A stretch of 37,305 nucleotides of DNA from Treponema sp. (GTDB lineage Bacteria > Spirochaetota > Spirochaetia > Treponematales > Breznakiellaceae): the NCBI GenBank assembly GCA_031286205.1, contig JAITUR010000039.1, forward strand, positions 1-37,305, given 5' to 3'. Within the stretch, counting starts at the first letter, position 1. Every line of letters starts with the position of its first letter. The notes under the pieces are model-generated. The model did no database searches. It was not told the DNA's origin and saw nothing but the letters and a program-made list of their open reading frames with translations. The translations under genes were made by a program, and so were the position numbers. Shown one piece after another: positions 7,332-14,233 of this stretch.

Positions 7332-7367
7332 CGGGAGCAAGGATGCTCTCGCCACAAATCAAGGAGG
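7332..7367 (+). promoter_or_regulatory. flaB leader hairpin with AGGA loop plus GGA in the Shine-Dalgarno (CsrA-type site)
   Basis: Bases 7332-7339 (CGGGAGCA) pair with 7344-7351 (TGCTCTCG), eight pairs including one G-U, and leave the tetraloop AGGA (7340-7343). Ten bases further on is the Shine-Dalgarno AAGGAGG (7361-7367). A GGA in a hairpin loop combined with a second GGA in the ribosome binding site is the classical CsrA/RsmA layout. A weaker GAAAA/TTTTC hairpin with GGA in its loop lies at 7295-7311. Confidence 0.6.
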
Positions 7368-7372
7368 ATCTT

Positions 7373-8230
7373 ATGATCATCAATCACAACCTGAGCGCAA
7401 TGTTTGCGGACAGGTCCCTCAAGGTAACACAAGTTTACCTCACCAAAGACATGGAAAAACTTTCTTCCGGTCTTCGTATCAACCGTGCCGGCGATGACGC
7501 GTCGGGACTGGCTGTATCTGAAAAGCTTCGCAGCCAAATTCGAGGCTTAAACCAAGCTTCTGCCAACGCAGCAAACGGTATCTCCTTTATCCAGGTAGCA
7601 GAAGGCTATTTGCAGGAAACCCAGGACATTATCCAGCGCCTCCGTGAACTTTCTGTCCAGGCAGCAAACGGTATCTACTCGGACGAAGACAGATTGTACC
7701 TCCAGGTCGAAGTTTCCCAGCTTGTTGACGAAGTCGACCGTATTGCAAGCCATGCCCAGTTTAACGGCATGAACCTGCTTACAGGCCGTTTCGCCCGCTT
7801 AATTGGTGAAAATGTCGTTACTGCCTCTATGTGGCTCCATATCGGCGCTAACATGGACCAGAGGATTCAGGTCTTTATTGGCACAATGTCTGCCAAAGGC
7901 CTTGGCATCCGCCAAATGGACGACAGCTTTGTTACACTGGAAACCCCGGATGATGCCAACAGAACAATCGGTATTGTCGATGCAGCACTCAAACTTATCA
8001 ACAAACAAAGAGCCGATTTAGGCGCTTACCAGAACCGTTTGGAACACGCAGTACGCGGTCTGGATATTGGCGCTGAAAACATGCAGGCTTCAGAGTCCAG
8101 GATAAGGGATGCCAACATGGCCAACCAGACGGTTGAATATGTTAAAAACCAGATCCTGAGTCAGGCCGGTGTAGCCATGCTCGCGCAGGCAAATCAGAGG
8201 TCAACTTCGGTCTTGTCTTTATTACAGTAA
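7373..8230 (+). CDS. flaB: Flagellin FlaB, periplasmic filament core (first copy)
   Basis: 285 residues, typical of spirochaetal FlaB core proteins, which form the inner filament of the periplasmic flagella. The conserved N-terminal D0/D1 helices ([35 protein letters not shown]) and C-terminal D1/D0 helices ([31 protein letters not shown]) frame a short middle region. No D2/D3 variable domain is present and there is no signal peptide, so it is exported by the flagellar type III system. The start is ATG 7373, 5 bases after AAGGAGG; the in-frame extension to 7280 is not homologous to flagellins and lies in the leader. Expression should depend on sigma-28 and on the leader hairpin. Confidence 0.97.
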
Positions 8231-8250
8231 TGTAATATAATTATTATGAA

Positions 8251-8285
8251 GGGGTTGTTCCGGTCCCCAAAACCGGAACAATTCC
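8251..8285 (+). terminator. Strong hairpin after the first flagellin gene
   Basis: Bases 8251-8264 pair with 8272-8285 in a 14-pair stem (core TTGTTCCGGT/ACCGGAACAA, plus two G-U and two G-C pairs) around a 7-base loop. It begins 20 bases after the stop codon. No T-run follows, so it may protect the mRNA 3' end or weakly attenuate rather than act as a full intrinsic terminator. Confidence 0.5.
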
Positions 8286-8506
8286 CTCCTCTGACTGACC
8301 ACTTAACCAAGGGCAAAAAAGCCTTTGTTTTGGTGGTTAGAGCAATTTAAGCGCTAGACTATGTTTAGGGCTTAAAAAGGGTTCTTTGACAACCACTCTC
8401 TATGTTGGCGCAGAACAGATTATCCAGCACTTTTACAGGTACTGGATGTTCTGTATTCGGTTAAAGGCGGCGGCGCGAAACCGCTTATTTTCCGTACTGT
8501 GGAACA
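8286..8506 (+). promoter_or_regulatory. Structured spacer between the two flagellin genes
   Basis: No gene is visible here. Two more hairpins occur. Arms 8298-8314 and 8321-8337 pair over 17 positions with two mismatches around an A6 loop. CAGAAC (8411-8416) with ATCCAG (8422-8427) pairs with CTGGAT (8442-8447) and GTTCTG (8448-8453), with a 5-base bulge. A possible degenerate sigma-28 promoter, TAAA (8462-8465) then ACCGCTTA (8480-8487), matches only 5 of 8 in the -10. A TTGACA at 8387-8392 lacks a good -10 box. Whether this copy has its own promoter is therefore uncertain. Confidence 0.45.
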
Positions 8507-8565
8507 GCTTCGGCAAGGATGTCGAAGCAAATATGTATCAATATAGATACATAAAACATGGAGGG
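8507..8565 (+). promoter_or_regulatory. Second flaB leader hairpin with AGGA loop (CsrA-type site)
   Basis: GCTTCGGCA (8507-8515) pairs with TGTCGAAGC (8520-8528), nine pairs with one G-U, leaving the loop AGGA (8516-8519). The top, CAAGGATGT, matches the known CsrA consensus ACARGGAUGU at nine of ten positions when read as GCAAGGATGT. The stem sequence differs from that of the first flaB leader while CAAGGATG is kept. The Shine-Dalgarno GGAGGG (8560-8565) supplies the second GGA. Confidence 0.6.
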
Positions 8566-8571
8566 TATAAT

Positions 8572-9426
8572 ATGATTATTAATCACAACATGAGTGCCTA
8601 TTTCGCCGACAGACAGCTTGGCGTAACACAGGTAACGATGACAAAAAACATGGAGAAATTAAGCTCCGGTTTACAGATCAATCGTGCCGGCGACGATGCA
8701 TCCGGACTCGCGGTTTCCGAAAAAATGAGAAGCCAGATTCGCGGTTTGCAGCAGGCAGAACGCAATATCCAAAACGGTGTGTCCTTTATTCAGGCTACTG
8801 AAGGTTATCTTCAGGGAACCCAGGACATTCTGCACCGCCTTAGGGAATTATCGGTTCAGTCAGCCAACGGAATTTATTCGGACGAAGATCGTATGCAGAT
8901 CCAGGTCGAAGTTTCCCAGCTTGTTGACGAAGTTAACCGTATTGCAAGCCATGCCCAGTTTAACGGCATGAATATGCTCACCGGAGCATTTGCAGTAGAT
9001 TCACCCGTAGGAAGAGTAATGCAGTTGCATGTAGGTGCCAACATGGATCAGAACAAGAGAATCTATGTAGGCGATATGACAGCTTCTGCTCTTGGTCTTG
9101 TCGAAGCCCAGGGCGGCGAAGGTGGAATTACCATCGCAGATCCTGAAAGCGCGAATAGAGCCATTGGCATGGTCGACGCTGCATTGAAAGTTGTTTCAAA
9201 GCAACGAGCCGACTTAGGTGCTTATCAAAACCGTTTTGAATTGGCAGCACAGGGTGTCGCTATTGCAGCAGAAAACATCCAGGCAGCCGAATCACGCATT
9301 AGGGATGCAAATATGGCATCGAGAATGGTAGATTATACCAGAGACTCGATCCTTACCCAGAGCGGAACGGCAATGTTGGCACAAGCCAACCTGCGCACAC
9401 AATCTGTGTTGCAGCTGCTTTCATAA
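8572..9426 (+). CDS. flaB: Flagellin FlaB, periplasmic filament core (second copy)
   Basis: 284 residues, paralogous to the first copy and likewise a core filament protein exported by the flagellar secretion system. The N-terminus [18 protein letters not shown] with [17 protein letters not shown] and the C-terminus [18 protein letters not shown] with [14 protein letters not shown] are the conserved flagellin ends. The middle differs from copy one around residues 140-190 (for example [18 protein letters not shown]). The start is ATG 8572, 6 bases after GGAGGG; the longer frame to 8386 runs through the structured leader and is rejected. Tandem flaB genes next to fliD are also seen in Treponema pallidum. 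A 73-base segment is nearly identical to copy one. Confidence 0.97.
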
Positions 9427-9464
9427 CACGATTAATTTCGGTTCTGATTAGTTAAAAACAAAGT

Positions 9465-9493
9465 AAAAGAGGCTTCTGGACGTCGTCTTTTTT
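9465..9493 (+). terminator. Probable intrinsic terminator after the second flagellin gene
   Basis: AAAAGAGGC pairs imperfectly with GTCGTCTTTT across a short loop, and the 3' arm runs into six T residues (9488-9493). The stem has a bulge, so it may be leaky and let transcription continue into flaG. Confidence 0.5.
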
Positions 9494-9500
9494 ACGGAAT

Positions 9501-9588
9501 TGACCGTTCGCGGTCATGCTGGCAGTGAAGTTCGCGCCTTCACTGCTTGTTATTTTCCTGGCTGCTAAAGTAATTTGGCAGTCAGGAA
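9501..9588 (+). promoter_or_regulatory. Series of three strong hairpins upstream of flaG
   Basis: Three consecutive perfect or near-perfect stems occur: TGACCG/CGGTCA (9501-9516) with a TTCG tetraloop; GCAGTGAAG/CTTCACTGC (9522-9546) with a 7-base loop; and an 11-pair stem with one G-U, 9555-9565 with 9578-9588. No reading frame of interest passes through. With the fourth hairpin at 9591-9613 almost the whole 205-base gap is folded. The role may be mRNA processing or stabilisation between flaB and flaG. Confidence 0.6.
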
Positions 9589-9590
9589 CA

Positions 9591-9627
9591 TTACCGCCAG
9601 GGATTGGCGGTAAGAATTACATGGAGG
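9591..9627 (+). promoter_or_regulatory. flaG leader hairpin with GGGAT loop (CsrA-type site)
   Basis: TTACCGCCA (9591-9599) pairs perfectly with TGGCGGTAA (9605-9613), leaving the 5-base loop GGGAT. The apex reads CAGGGAT, the CARGGAU core of CsrA sites. The Shine-Dalgarno GGAGG (9623-9627) follows after nine bases and gives a second GGA. This is the third flagellar leader in the window with this layout. Confidence 0.55.
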
Positions 9628-9632
9628 TAAGT

Positions 9633-9968
9633 ATGTCCGTAGCAAGTGTGGGATTCTCTTTCTCGCAAATGCCTATGCCCGTTGACGCTAACCGTCAGGG
9701 AGCAATAAGGCAGGATACGGCCGCCAAACCGGAAAACAAGGTAAAGCCTCTGGTCATTGAATCTGCAACTAAGGATTTGCAGAAGATTGGAAACGCTTTT
9801 AACAAAAAGCTGCAATTTGTAATTGATCACCAGTCAAATCAGGTCATCGTCAAGGTGATCGATAAAGACACCGATAAGGTGATTAGGGAACTTCCGCCCG
9901 AAGAATTACAAAGGCTGCATCAGAACCTTAGAGAGGCTATCGGTCTTATTTTCGATGAGATGGCCTAG
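9633..9968 (+). CDS. flaG: FlaG family flagellar protein
   Basis: 111 residues, a typical FlaG length. The C-terminal half has the family pattern: NAFNKKLQFVIDHQSNQVIVKVIDKDTDKVIRELPPEE, then a final amphipathic helix. The N-terminal ~50 residues are disordered and Pro/Ala/Lys-rich. FlaG influences filament length or assembly and is commonly encoded beside fliD, as here. The start is ATG 9633, 5 bases after GGAGG. An ATG at 9621 lies within the Shine-Dalgarno stretch and the longer frame from 9516 is leader sequence. It is probably cotranscribed with fliD, whose start is 58 bases downstream. Confidence 0.9.
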   Translation: MSVASVGFSFSQMPMPVDANRQGAIRQDTAAKPENKVKPLVIESATKDLQKIGNAFNKKLQFVIDHQSNQVIVKVIDKDTDKVIRELPPEELQRLHQNLREAIGLIFDEMA

Positions 9969-10026: not shown

Positions 10027-12048
10027 ATGTCCGATGTTTATGTACCTGGAATAAGAAGCCGATTCAACACAGATCAAATTATCGAAGGTTTGATGAATGT
10101 TGAGCGCATTCCCAGAGACAGAGTTGAAAGAAATATTGATTCTCTTCAGGTTCAAAAGGGTTATTGGCAGGAACTCGGCACACGAATTTCATCTTTACGC
10201 GAAAGTTCGCGCTTTCTTTTTTCTTATCAAAACCCCTTTAACGACAGAATTGCGGCATCCGGCAATGATTCCGTAATTACTGCCGCAGCTACCAGAGAAG
10301 CTCTGGAGCAGTCCTACTCTTTCACTGTAAAACAAGTTGCATCGGCAGACCGTTTTCTTTCTCAGCCACTGGACGAAAGAATGAGGGTTGATGCCGGCAC
10401 ATATATATTTACCGTTGGCAATGACGAAATTTCCATAAACTTCCGCGGCGGAACTCTGCGCGATTTTGCGGAGACAATTAACCGCCGGGGACGAGATAAA
10501 ATAGGCGCAAGCCTTATGGCCGTACAAAGCGGCACAAGATCGCTTTTATTAGAATCCAAAGTAACAGGCTCCGAAAACAGGCTTACATTTGGCGGCGATT
10601 CTGTAGAATTTTTAAAAAAAATCGGCATGATGGAAGTATCCAGCAATGCCCAAACTGTAGTTTCTATTACCGACAATTCCGTCCAGAAAAGCGGAACAAA
10701 CGCGCAGCATATCACCATTAATAATGGTGTTGTAAAGGTTGCCCCGCGCGCCTCCGCTTCTATTCCAATGAATATTCCCGTAAGCTCGGATTCAACTTTA
10801 ATGTTAAAATTGGATACCCAAACAAGAGTTGAAACAAGCGATATTTTTAATACCCCTTCCGCTCCGCCGGGTCCTTCAGTCCCCGCAGGCTCCGTTACCT
10901 ATGGCGGAATTACCATAGAAAACGATCCTTCTTTGGCTCCATTTCCGGAATTTGCCGCTCCTCCCCCGCCTGTCAGAAACGATACAATGGAAGTATTAAG
11001 CGTTACTTTTTCTGACGGATCTTCCGCAAAACTTGCGCCCATTACAGACAGCAATGATTTTACAACAAGGCAATATTCGCTTGCGGGTATTGCTCAGGGA
11101 AGAACAATTACCGGTATCAATATAGAAAATGCAAACACACATAGAGAAGTTTCTATAGGCAAAATAGAAGTGTTTGATCCTGCAACCGCGGGCGGTTTAA
11201 CGCCATTAAACGCCGTTGCAAATGCACGGGACGCAATTATCTCTATGGAAGGTATCGAAATAATTCGTTCTTCCAATAATATTGACGATCTTATTCCGGG
11301 AGTAACTTTAAATGTTAAGGGTGTATCCGAAAGACCTGTAGAACTTAATGTAACTGCAAATACAGAAGCCGTTAAAGAAGCAATTATCTCTTTTGTCGGA
11401 AATTACAACAGGGTTATGGCGGAAATTAATGTTCTTACAAGACGAGACGAACAAATTGTAAACGAACTTACATATTTATCCAGAGACGAAGCCAGCGAAA
11501 CAAAAGAAAGGCTTGGCGCTTTTGCCGGAGATTCTACATTAAACAGTTTTAGAAATAATCTTATGAGGGCGGTAACAGCACCCTACCCCACCAGCTTAGA
11601 ACGCGATCTTTCCCTGCTTGCGCAAATAGGAATAAGCTCCAACGCAACAAGGGCAGCCGGTTATGATGTTTCCCGGCTTAGAGGTTATCTGGAAATTGAC
11701 GAAAGGGCTTTGGATTTTGCGCTGGAAACAAAGATTCCGGCAATCAGGCAGCTTTTTGCAAACGACACTACAGGAGACTTGCTTGCAGACACAGGCGTTG
11801 CATTTAATGTCGATGCCCTTGCAAGACCATTTGTAGAAACAGGCGGTATTATTACATTAAAAACCAATACTATCGATTCCCGCATTAGCCAGGATCAAAG
11901 AAGAATTACTTCGCTGGATCGACAGCTTGCCGCAAAAGAACAGGAGCTTCGGATTCAATACGCCAGAATGGAAGCGGCTTACGCGCAAATGGAAAGAACA
12001 TCCCAATCTTTGGATAATTTTAGTCAGCAAAACCGCGGCAACAGGTAA
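10027..12048 (+). CDS. fliD: Flagellar filament cap protein FliD (HAP2)
   Basis: 673 residues, in the usual range for spirochaetal FliD. It caps the growing filament and helps flagellin subunits fold into place. The N-terminal domain is characteristic: VPGIRSRFNTDQIIEGLMNVE, with a coiled-coil run to about 60. The middle is beta-rich (SYSFTVKQVASADRFLS; ISINFRGGTLRDFAETIN) and includes a Pro-rich insert (about 275-320) that may be lineage-specific. The C-terminal helical region (about 600-670) carries DSRISQDQRRITSLDRQL and ends in a heptad-like helix. The ribosome binding site is GGGGGAG (10012-10018), 8 bases before the ATG. The short leader has palindromes (9979-9988, 9995-10004) but no GGA hairpin loop, unlike flaB and flaG. 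Confidence 0.96.
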   Translation: MSDVYVPGIRSRFNTDQIIEGLMNVERIPRDRVERNIDSLQVQKGYWQELGTRISSLRESSRFLFSYQNPFNDRIAASGNDSVITAAATREALEQSYSFTVKQVASADRFLSQPLDERMRVDAGTYIFTVGNDEISINFRGGTLRDFAETINRRGRDKIGASLMAVQSGTRSLLLESKVTGSENRLTFGGDSVEFLKKIGMMEVSSNAQTVVSITDNSVQKSGTNAQHITINNGVVKVAPRASASIPMNIPVSSDSTLMLKLDTQTRVETSDIFNTPSAPPGPSVPAGSVTYGGITIENDPSLAPFPEFAAPPPPVRNDTMEVLSVTFSDGSSAKLAPITDSNDFTTRQYSLAGIAQGRTITGINIENANTHREVSIGKIEVFDPATAGGLTPLNAVANARDAIISMEGIEIIRSSNNIDDLIPGVTLNVKGVSERPVELNVTANTEAVKEAIISFVGNYNRVMAEINVLTRRDEQIVNELTYLSRDEASETKERLGAFAGDSTLNSFRNNLMRAVTAPYPTSLERDLSLLAQIGISSNATRAAGYDVSRLRGYLEIDERALDFALETKIPAIRQLFANDTTGDLLADTGVAFNVDALARPFVETGGIITLKTNTIDSRISQDQRRITSLDRQLAAKEQELRIQYARMEAAYAQMERTSQSLDNFSQQNRGNR

Positions 12049-12051
12049 AAC

Positions 12052-12867
12052 ATGGAAATTAAGGTTAACGGAAAAGCAATTGATTATACTCTGGAAAACG
12101 AAAAAACTATCAGCGAAATAATTGTGTCTCTGGAACAGTGGATAACCGGTTCCGGACACCGTATGTCAGGTTTATCTATCGACGGCAAAACAGCAGGTTC
12201 TTCTTCTTTGGAAGATTTTTTGTCCAGGGATATTGATTCTGTAAATACGCTGGAAATAATTACAAGCTCTAATGCCGATCTTGCAGCAGAAAGCCTTGTA
12301 AAAATTCTTGACAATATAAACGAGTTTCAGACATTAAAACACGAAGATAAAAACAGTTTTTTGGAAAACTGGAAACAAAGCCCTCAGGCTAATTTTACGG
12401 CAGAGTCCATGCCGGATCTTTACAGCGTGCTGACCGGCTCTTTTTCCGGAAGCGGGCTTAACTTAAACAGCGCGTTTTCCATAACAGAAGAAAGATTAAG
12501 AGAAATTAAAGACCCTAAAGCGGAACTGGAAAATTTAAAACCGCTTTTTGACGAAACCTGCACTCGTCTTGCCGATCTTTCTCTGGATGTTCAAACAGGA
12601 AAAGATGCCCGCGCCGCTCAGACTATTCAGTTATTTTCCGGCATTACGGAGAAAATGCTTCGTCTTAGCAGCCAGCTTGATATTCAGGGTTATTTAACTG
12701 AAGCGAAAGATACGGTTAATCAAATTATTAACGAATTGGGAGATATAATTAAAGAACTGCTAAATGCATATGAAAGGCATGATACCGTTCTTGTAGGAGA
12801 CTTGGCGGAATACGAAGCCTGCGGAAAACTACAGGAACTTTATACTGCCATAAAAGGAGACAAATGA
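12052..12867 (+). CDS. Conserved flagellar-locus protein of unknown function (beta-grasp-like N-terminus)
   Basis: 271 residues, not recognised by name. Residues 1-75 look like a ubiquitin-like or beta-grasp fold: a strand-turn-strand start (MEIKVNGKAIDYTLENEKTI), then a helix (SEIIVSLEQWI) and a later strand (VNTLEIIT). The remainder is mainly helical with several long amphipathic helices (about 77-110, 145-185, 190-255). It begins 3 bases after fliD stops and overlaps the PilZ gene by 4 bases, so it belongs to the fliD unit. Many bacteria have the FliS chaperone gene here; no FliS is seen in this window. A chaperone or assembly role is possible, but this is inference from position. Confidence 0.85.
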   Translation: MEIKVNGKAIDYTLENEKTISEIIVSLEQWITGSGHRMSGLSIDGKTAGSSSLEDFLSRDIDSVNTLEIITSSNADLAAESLVKILDNINEFQTLKHEDKNSFLENWKQSPQANFTAESMPDLYSVLTGSFSGSGLNLNSAFSITEERLREIKDPKAELENLKPLFDETCTRLADLSLDVQTGKDARAAQTIQLFSGITEKMLRLSSQLDIQGYLTEAKDTVNQIINELGDIIKELLNAYERHDTVLVGDLAEYEACGKLQELYTAIKGDK

Positions 12868-13969: not shown

Positions 13970-14233
13970 ATGAAAGTTATTTCTATTAAAGACATGATTC
14001 GAAAAGATGTCCCAATTTATTACCGTAAACTTTATACAGGCGTTGCTGTAATAGAAATGAATAATAGCCCTGTCGATTACCGCATAGATTTTTCTATAGA
14101 ATATAAACCTACTGGCCATAAAGAAATTGCCGTATCTTTTATAGATACTATAGACTACCCCTTAGTGCCTGTTAACAAAGAATTAAAATCATATATATTA
14201 GAACTGGAAAATAATGCAGGGCTTCCAGATTGA
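13970..14233 (+). CDS. Small conserved hypothetical protein
   Basis: 87 residues, not recognised. It has no signal peptide and no membrane segment. The sequence is beta-rich (GVAVIEMNNSPVDYRIDFSIEY; KEIAVSFIDTIDYPLVPVN) and ends in a short acidic helix. The start codon follows GAAGG (13960-13964) at 5 bases. Its 3' end overlaps tsaE by 20 bases, which supports its being a real, translationally coupled gene between the PilZ gene and the tsaE-tsaB pair. Confidence 0.75.
   Translation: MKVISIKDMIRKDVPIYYRKLYTGVAVIEMNNSPVDYRIDFSIEYKPTGHKEIAVSFIDTIDYPLVPVNKELKSYILELENNAGLPD

Follow-up and report, generated by a model that had tools for sequence, protein, structure and literature searches.

Control of flagellin by CsrA is already established. 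In Bacillus subtilis the leader of the flagellin gene hag carries CsrA sites, one of which overlaps the Shine-Dalgarno sequence (PMC7652899); in Campylobacter jejuni the flaA leader has GGA motifs 21 nt apart, and the flaG leader is likewise a CsrA target as judged by co-immunoprecipitation and gel shift (PMC4894983); and in Borrelia burgdorferi, which is a spirochete as the treponemes are but has a single flagellin, CsrA represses flaB (PMC9481697). The stretch of DNA analysed here (the window) comprises the 37,305 nt of contig JAITUR010000039.1 of Treponema sp., taken from a 2.34 Mb draft genome of 126 contigs that is 94% complete, and it holds two core flagellin genes (first and second flaB) followed by flaG and fliD. 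The leaders of the first three of these genes each carry a hairpin with GGA in its loop, and we consider it likely, with a probability of about 0.85, that these hairpins are CsrA docking sites from which a CsrA dimer would bridge to the Shine-Dalgarno, co-repressing the core flagellins and, in this lineage, FlaG. In comparison with B. subtilis and C. jejuni, the treponemes have the predicted site on three or four separate filament messages, and where the spacer between the two sites is longer it is shortened by hairpins.

CsrA sites near flaB1 and flaB2 of Treponema denticola are already in print, in one sentence of section 3.1 of PMC9481697, a section that gives no structure, conservation or spacing and does not name sites at flaB3 or flaG. 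Following the naming of that paper, and judging by position and presumed synteny, the first flaB of the window would be FlaB1 and the second FlaB3, and T. denticola flaB1 and flaB2 would correspond to the first flaB and to a flaB that is unlinked to the cluster. As far as the literature was searched, no earlier report was found of the second-flaB and flaG sites, of the division between hexaloops and heptaloops, or of the three things put forward as new here, namely the identity of the orphan Rfam family Termite-flg with the second-flaB leader ending in the GGA hairpin, a structural rule for the distance from that hairpin to the Shine-Dalgarno, and the complementarity between a leader loop and a terminator loop. 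The features of the window on which the argument draws are as follows.

7332..7351, + strand: GGA-loop hairpin of the first flaB leader, 8 pairs, GGA at 7341-7343 in an ANGGAX hexaloop on the stem (from the fold and relatives)
7363..7368, + strand: GGAGGA of the first-flaB Shine-Dalgarno, presumed second CsrA site, 19 nt past the loop GGA
7373..8230, + strand: first flaB, core flagellin (Pfam PF00669, PF00700)
8439..8532, + strand: Rfam RF01729 Termite-flg RNA, the second-flaB leader (49.8 bits, gathering score 40)
8472..8479, + strand: GGCGCGAA, central apical loop of Termite-flg, complementary to 9531-9538
8507..8528, + strand: GGA-loop hairpin of the second flaB leader, the final hairpin of Termite-flg, 9 pairs, GGA at 8517-8519
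8532..8553, + strand: extra A+T hairpin between the loop GGA and the Shine-Dalgarno of the second flaB, the removal of which takes the gap from 40 to 18 nt
8560..8565, + strand: GGAGGG Shine-Dalgarno of the second flaB (from the sequence)
8572..9426, + strand: second flaB, core flagellin (Pfam)
9463..9495, + strand: hairpin in the 3' untranslated region (UTR), between the second-flaB stop and the terminator, showing CTGGACGTC (9476-9484), with a YYGGAYGT motif kept in relatives
9521..9547, + strand: terminator-like hairpin, its loop within TTCGCGCC (9531-9538), complementary to 8472-8479
9591..9613, + strand: GGA-loop hairpin of the flaG leader, 9 pairs, GGA at 9601-9603 (from the fold)
9623..9625, + strand: GGA of the flaG Shine-Dalgarno, 19 nt past the loop GGA
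9633..9968, + strand: flaG (Pfam PF03646)
10027..12048, + strand: fliD, with a leader that lacks the signal (Pfam)

The initial annotation, made from the letters alone, had described the three leader hairpins with their pair counts and apex sequences and had named the genes flaB, flaB, flaG and fliD. Folding returns 7332-7351, 8507-8528 and 9591-9613 as local minimum-free-energy structures (-11.8, -13.5 and -14 kcal/mol), the pair counts and apices are correct, and Pfam gives two flagellins, FlaG and FliD. Compared with dinucleotide shuffles the local z scores of the three are -2.6, -4.8 and -5.2, and all three hairpins are also present when longer leaders are folded (z of -1.4, -3.7 and -3.5). 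A CsrA/RsmE target site presents its GGA single-stranded in a hairpin loop, and this is where the GGA lies both in the folds and in the relatives. Two things had been overlooked: a third flaB on another contig, unlinked to the cluster (locus L056, G000:C55), which also bears a GGA-loop hairpin, and the membership of the second hairpin in a known Rfam family.

Relatives from the same order provided 46 cluster regions, of which a few are truncated at the end of a contig or have no flaG match, as well as 34 regions around an unlinked flaB, that of the source genome among them. The last 90 nt of each leader were screened for ungapped hairpins of -5 kcal/mol or below that show GGA in the loop, with 100 shuffles per leader and with leaders shorter than 45 nt (four first-flaB and one second-flaB) excluded. 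Such a hairpin is found in 39 of 40 first-flaB leaders (1.7 expected from shuffles), 37 of 46 second-flaB leaders (3.2 expected), 28 of 34 unlinked-flaB leaders (1.4 expected) and 15 of 46 flaG leaders (1.6 expected), many flaG starts being misplaced in this screen. Covariation was assessed on 32 distinct first-flaB hairpins, chosen for having a GGA-loop stem in which an A-U flanks NGGA, with compensating changes forming no part of the selection. The stem has 63 double-change cells against 18.3 when shuffled, and 94.1% of its cells are paired against 73.6% when shuffled and at most 48.7% in slid controls, a percentage that is inflated, with the two innermost pairs fixed, because of the way in which the set was chosen; the number of stem pairs with any double change, seven of nine, is not exceptional (52 of 500 shuffles). 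The initial annotation had held beforehand that its reading would fall if relatives did not conserve the apex, and in them the apex is kept and the stems vary in a compensating fashion.

Two minor observations concern the same leaders. The unlinked flaB of G010 and G033 (L060 and L061) has a leader of first-flaB type, with the hairpin and a AAGGAGGAT Shine-Dalgarno, which suggests replacement or duplication of the leader. A sigma-28-like pattern occurs in 14 of 40 first-flaB upstream regions and is not used in the argument.

Every one of the 39 first-flaB and of the 28 unlinked-flaB hairpins forms an ANGGAX hexaloop directly on the stem, with an A two bases 5' of the GGA and a variable N; at X the first-flaB loops have either U or C, and the unlinked-flaB loops have A in addition to these two. 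An ANGGAX hexaloop on a stem is the high-affinity form of CsrA/RsmE site as described in PMC4005645. One extra nucleotide on the 3' side of the loop is found in 30 of 37 second-flaB and 11 of 15 flaG hairpins, which are mostly heptaloops. Graded binding is predicted from this division, the loop geometry suggesting that CsrA would hold the first and unlinked flaB messages more tightly than those of the second flaB and flaG.

The distance from the loop GGA to the GGA of the Shine-Dalgarno has a raw median of 20 nt in the first flaB (39 leaders), 22 nt in the second (37 leaders) and 48 nt both in the unlinked flaB (28 leaders) and in flaG (12 leaders). When the hairpins predicted within the spacer are subtracted from the raw gap, the effective gap that results is 16 nt (quartiles 16-17) for the unlinked flaB and 21 nt (20-24) for flaG. 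For the 40 of 116 leaders with a raw gap of more than 30 nt, the mean goes from 47.2 nt with a standard deviation (sd) of 9.4 to an effective 18.0 nt with an sd of 3.4, whilst in 300 rounds of shuffled spacers the sd of the effective gap averaged 9.9 and was never below 7.2; the remaining 76 leaders have a raw gap of 20.9 nt (sd 2.3). Within the window the gap is 19 nt for the first flaB and flaG, and the 40 nt of the second flaB become 18 nt once the hairpin at 8532-8553 is taken out. The separation over which a CsrA dimer can bridge two sites is 10-63 nt, and more than 18 nt is optimal (PMC7652899); a second GGA is found at bridging distance, in the Shine-Dalgarno. The constant spacing is as would be expected of one CsrA dimer spanning two sites, and a rule by which hairpins fold away surplus spacer could sharpen the prediction of CsrA targets.

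Termite-flg, an orphan among Rfam families, is the second-flaB leader and ends in the GGA hairpin, since the hairpin gccccGGCAaGGAUaGCCggggc that terminates its consensus is this same GGA hairpin. The leader at 8439-8532 scores 49.8 bits, above the RF01729 gathering threshold of 40. Under stricter filters there are 31 matches to RF01729 in 30 of 59 genomes, all of this genus and each about 20 nt upstream of a second flaB, and the model has no match outside the genus among these 59. Many leaders of other families have a similar layout, in which an apical loop with GGCGC is followed by a hairpin. A listing of 2010 has Termite-flg as a certain RNA that is not a riboswitch and comes solely from the termite hind gut (PMC2864571); the literature searched held no other paper that names it, and hence no link to CsrA. 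The family can now be assigned to a gene and a host group, with CsrA as its likely protein partner. The match to Termite-flg suggests in addition that the window comes from a termite-gut treponeme.

The initial annotation had proposed a search for csrA and fliW in the genome, and a genome without csrA would have overturned its reading. A csrA gene is present at C92:16-171 (E 8.9e-25; the Pfam and Protein Data Bank relatives agree), the search for it having been confined to the source genome; fliW was not found there and is returned to below. In the two relatives that were read, flgL, fliW and csrA are contiguous, the end of fliW lying within one base of the start of csrA, and fliW beside csrA is likewise the arrangement of the known homeostasis between CsrA, FliW and flagellin. 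Among the 59 genomes, which include the source genome, fliW is found in 46; these make up 46 of the 54 genomes with flaB and none of the five without a flaB match.

In the mechanism that we propose one face of a CsrA dimer would sit on the ANGGAX loop and the other on the Shine-Dalgarno GGA about 16-22 nt away, so that the ribosome would be blocked, and where the gap was enlarged in evolution a spacer hairpin would fold it back to about the same length. Free CsrA would then repress all three core flagellins jointly, plus FlaG in this lineage, and FliW would be expected to release them during flagellin export; the binding, the repression and the sensing of flagellin by FliW are what we infer. 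Spirochete filaments combine several flagellins at a defined ratio, and when one flaB is deleted in T. denticola the remaining ones come to make up a changed, mostly larger, part of the filament (PMC9481697). The question of how flagellin ratios are held would find a concrete answer in a CsrA switch that is common to these messages and acts through loops of graded affinity, and the switch as proposed spans from termite-gut treponemes to a T. pallidum-sized genome.

CsrA could bind these hairpins to a different end, the abundant flagellin leaders acting mainly as a sponge that soaks up CsrA and so regulates other messages rather than their own. The flaA leader of C. jejuni does titrate CsrA from flaG and, to a lesser extent, from flaB (PMC4894983), and the first and unlinked flaB, whose hexaloops have the high-affinity form, would suit such a role, yet a sponge has no need of a Shine-Dalgarno GGA at a ruler-like distance. 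The two readings are compatible, and titration as the principal function would seem unlikely, albeit with an appreciable chance of being right. It is hardly credible that the hairpins do nothing beyond stabilising abundant messages at their 5' ends. Such messages, as is generally known, often have stable stems there, but stabilisation alone would fix neither the ANGGA of the loop nor its distance to the Shine-Dalgarno, and FlaA is also a filament protein, yet none of 23 flaA or FlaA-like leaders with a called start has a stable GGA hairpin. A little less improbable, and still a poor contender, is the idea that a different factor binds the hairpins, or that Termite-flg is a ligand-sensing element, with CsrA uninvolved: no function is assigned to Termite-flg in what PMC2864571 says of it, and 13 second-flaB leaders retain the hairpin without the GGA, but the loop fits ANGGAX, the table of PMC2864571 says 'n' to Termite-flg as a riboswitch, and the leaders of the first flaB, the unlinked flaB and flaG share the hairpin yet have no match to RF01729.

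Docking of CsrA on these hairpins, which remains our preferred reading, has a number of observations weighing against it or limiting its reach. The stems have 7-10 pairs, as against four or fewer in most ligands from systematic evolution of ligands by exponential enrichment (SELEX; PMC7652899). There is no match to fliW in the source assembly. Only 15 bases of contig precede the ATG of csrA, which begins at base 16, and these finish with a stop codon where that of fliW would be; flgL has no match in the source assembly either; because of this position, the gene order of the relatives and the missing flgL, an assembly gap is the likely cause, and the fliW of the source genome has probably been lost at the contig end. 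With regard to distance, 37 of the 40 long-gap leaders have an effective gap within 14-24 nt (mean of 18.0 and maximum of 26 leaders when shuffled), a band that was picked after the first gap results were known, and the long-gap leaders are not independent, because 27 of the 40 are unlinked flaB. When the 2.34 Mb genome was searched under filters with a covariance model of the hairpin, the first-flaB leader came out on top and the second-flaB leader next, as expected of a model trained on the two flaB hairpins of the window among others; the flaG and unlinked-flaB hairpins are not among the matches listed.

The extent of the regulon also differs from what had been proposed, which was one switch on both flagellins and FlaG. 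A shared switch is supported, and it is wider than this, because the unlinked flaB also bears the hairpin, and narrower, because the flaG hairpin is mostly confined to this genus and the relatives closest to it and because 13 second-flaB leaders of family f3 are without the GGA. With flaG starts set by tblastn and a Shine-Dalgarno, which was possible in 114 of 152 regions, and with a cut of -4.3 kcal/mol, 24 of 30 leaders within this genus have a CANGGA hairpin, as do 23 of 59 from further named relatives and 3 of 14 and 1 of 11 in other groups, against a mean of 0.3 of 114 in shuffled leaders; the overall 51 of 114 is an upper figure, because some matches (such as L142, L151 and G083) involve the Shine-Dalgarno itself. 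At a cut of -4 kcal/mol 27 of 152 second-flaB leaders are without a GGA hairpin. Thirteen of these, all of family f3, keep the stem with CANGA rather than CANGGA at the apex, one G having been lost (G048, G051, G054, G057, G160, G135, G111, G083, G066, G118, G097, G163 and G142), and the hairpin may have another use there; several others of the 27 have the GGA in weaker or interrupted stems.

The second-flaB message has, in addition to its predicted CsrA site, complementary segments at its two ends: reversed and complemented, GGCGCGAA (8472-8479) reads exactly as TTCGCGCC (9531-9538) behind the same gene. Of 154 distinct loci, the 147 that have GCGC at both ends were used to follow the pairing, seven being skipped for want of a loop GCGC or because of a short leader; one of the 147, G045, was wrongly anchored in these counts and was removed for the tree (146 loci). 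The base after the GCGC core (+1) pairs in 136 of 147 loci (G:C 95, A:U 31, U:A 5, G:U 3, U:G 2). When partners are permuted among the 100 distinct flank combinations, pairing exceeds the permuted level at +1 (92 vs 66.9, 0 of 5000) and at +2 (62 vs 50.4, 10 of 5000). This permutation ignores kinship, and a tree of the coding sequences was used as a complement. On it, same-branch double changes at -1, +1 and +2 number 3, 2 and 6 (0.65, 0.41 and 2.94 expected), an excess reached, for each position taken singly, in 94, 247 and 210 of 5000 cases; seven of these 11 changes go from standard pair to standard pair, the best of 30 off-register comparisons is 656 of 5000, and positions +3 and +4 show no excess. 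Five loci without the GCGC core on one or both sides (G045, G051, G053, L189 and L196) have, by reading, at least six complementary bases, G-U included; in G045, which by our inference is T. pallidum-like, the leader has GTGCGGC and the terminator loop GCCGCAT. The two UTRs thus hold complementary segments with compensatory change, the statistics being modest, with misfits and one contrary position.

Such a match could arise by coincidence between two GC-rich loops that share the palindrome GCGC. Since GCGC is self-complementary, part of the match comes free, and with 3 matches in the window, where 1.9 are expected, the octamer TTCGCGCC is no rarity there. Furthermore, positions -1 (81 vs 79.8) and +3 (45 vs 39.1) pair no better than when permuted, 11 of 147 loci are unpaired at +1, and the tree gives position -2 an equal excess of double changes (6, 140 of 5000), none of them pair to pair. 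A swap test free of anchors gave 231 of 20000 over 20 genomes, with the loop of the same message among the best five in only 13 of the 20, on loops that were selected visually and confirmed against the sequences, the automatic terminator caller having missed or misplaced some; the controls gave 1497 of 5000 for first-flaB leaders and 4504 of 5000 for unlinked-flaB leaders. Coincidence is less easily reconciled with the pairing at +1 and +2 above the permuted level, with the tree changes at -1, +1 and +2, most of them pair to pair and unmatched off register, and with the complementary bases retained in the five loci that lack the core. On balance the pairing of the two loops is likelier to be real than not, and coincidence keeps a substantial share of the probability.

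A further motif, YYGGAYGT, is present in 149 of 154 second-flaB 3' regions against 3.6 expected from mononucleotide shuffles, and lies in a hairpin loop in the window; the CsrA consensus has a similar 3' half, but the motif is not claimed as a CsrA site, because there is no A two bases before the GGA. In a rough parsing of the 3' UTR stem 101 of 144 are C:G or T:A, which is only suggestive. As a tentative model, to which we give somewhat less than even odds, the second-flaB message in these treponemes and their order would be a ring, in which the apical loop of Termite-flg kisses the terminator loop some 1 kb downstream, beside the CsrA dimer that spans the leader hairpin and the Shine-Dalgarno, and perhaps the GGA-bearing 3' UTR hairpin; the state of CsrA would in this way couple translation of the second flagellin to message stability and to read-through into flaG. 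Pairing between the 5' and 3' UTR within one mRNA is described for icaR of Staphylococcus aureus, where the 3' UTR pairs with the Shine-Dalgarno (PMC3868564), whereas in treponemes the pairing would be loop to loop, about 1 kb apart, would involve a terminator-like hairpin and would lie upstream of the predicted CsrA site. If the ring exists, its 5' half would be Termite-flg, an RNA that has lacked an explanation since 2010, and if the loops do pair they would provide a widespread case of 5'-3' UTR pairing in bacteria.

Some genes and matches were tried as members of the regulon and rejected. The leader of fliD had been said to lack the signal, and in the fold of the window it has no such hairpin; 6 of 85 fliD leaders (those found by motif among 154 loci) reach the energy cut, none with a CANGGA apex. 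For flaA and FlaA-like genes the 23 leaders without a stable GGA hairpin are those with a called start among 30 loci, seven having no start, and several of the 23 starts are doubtful (non-ATG or no Shine-Dalgarno), including that of L281, the best flaA of the source genome. Past fliD, the open reading frames at 12052-12867, directly after it, and 13970-14233 have no Pfam match at E 0.001. Matches 3 and 4 of the covariance model lie in a repeat adjacent to tRNA genes and not in the leader of a message. This repeat is found in L242 at about 1430-1640, after tRNA-Met, and in L243 on the reverse strand, beside tRNA-Gln. Its hairpins show ATGGAT and ACAGGATGT, of which ACAGGATGT agrees with the core of the SELEX consensus for CsrA. 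DNA that resembles the repeat, often in part only, is present in 19 of 35 genomes, its own included, and it could be a CsrA decoy or merely a mobile repeat.

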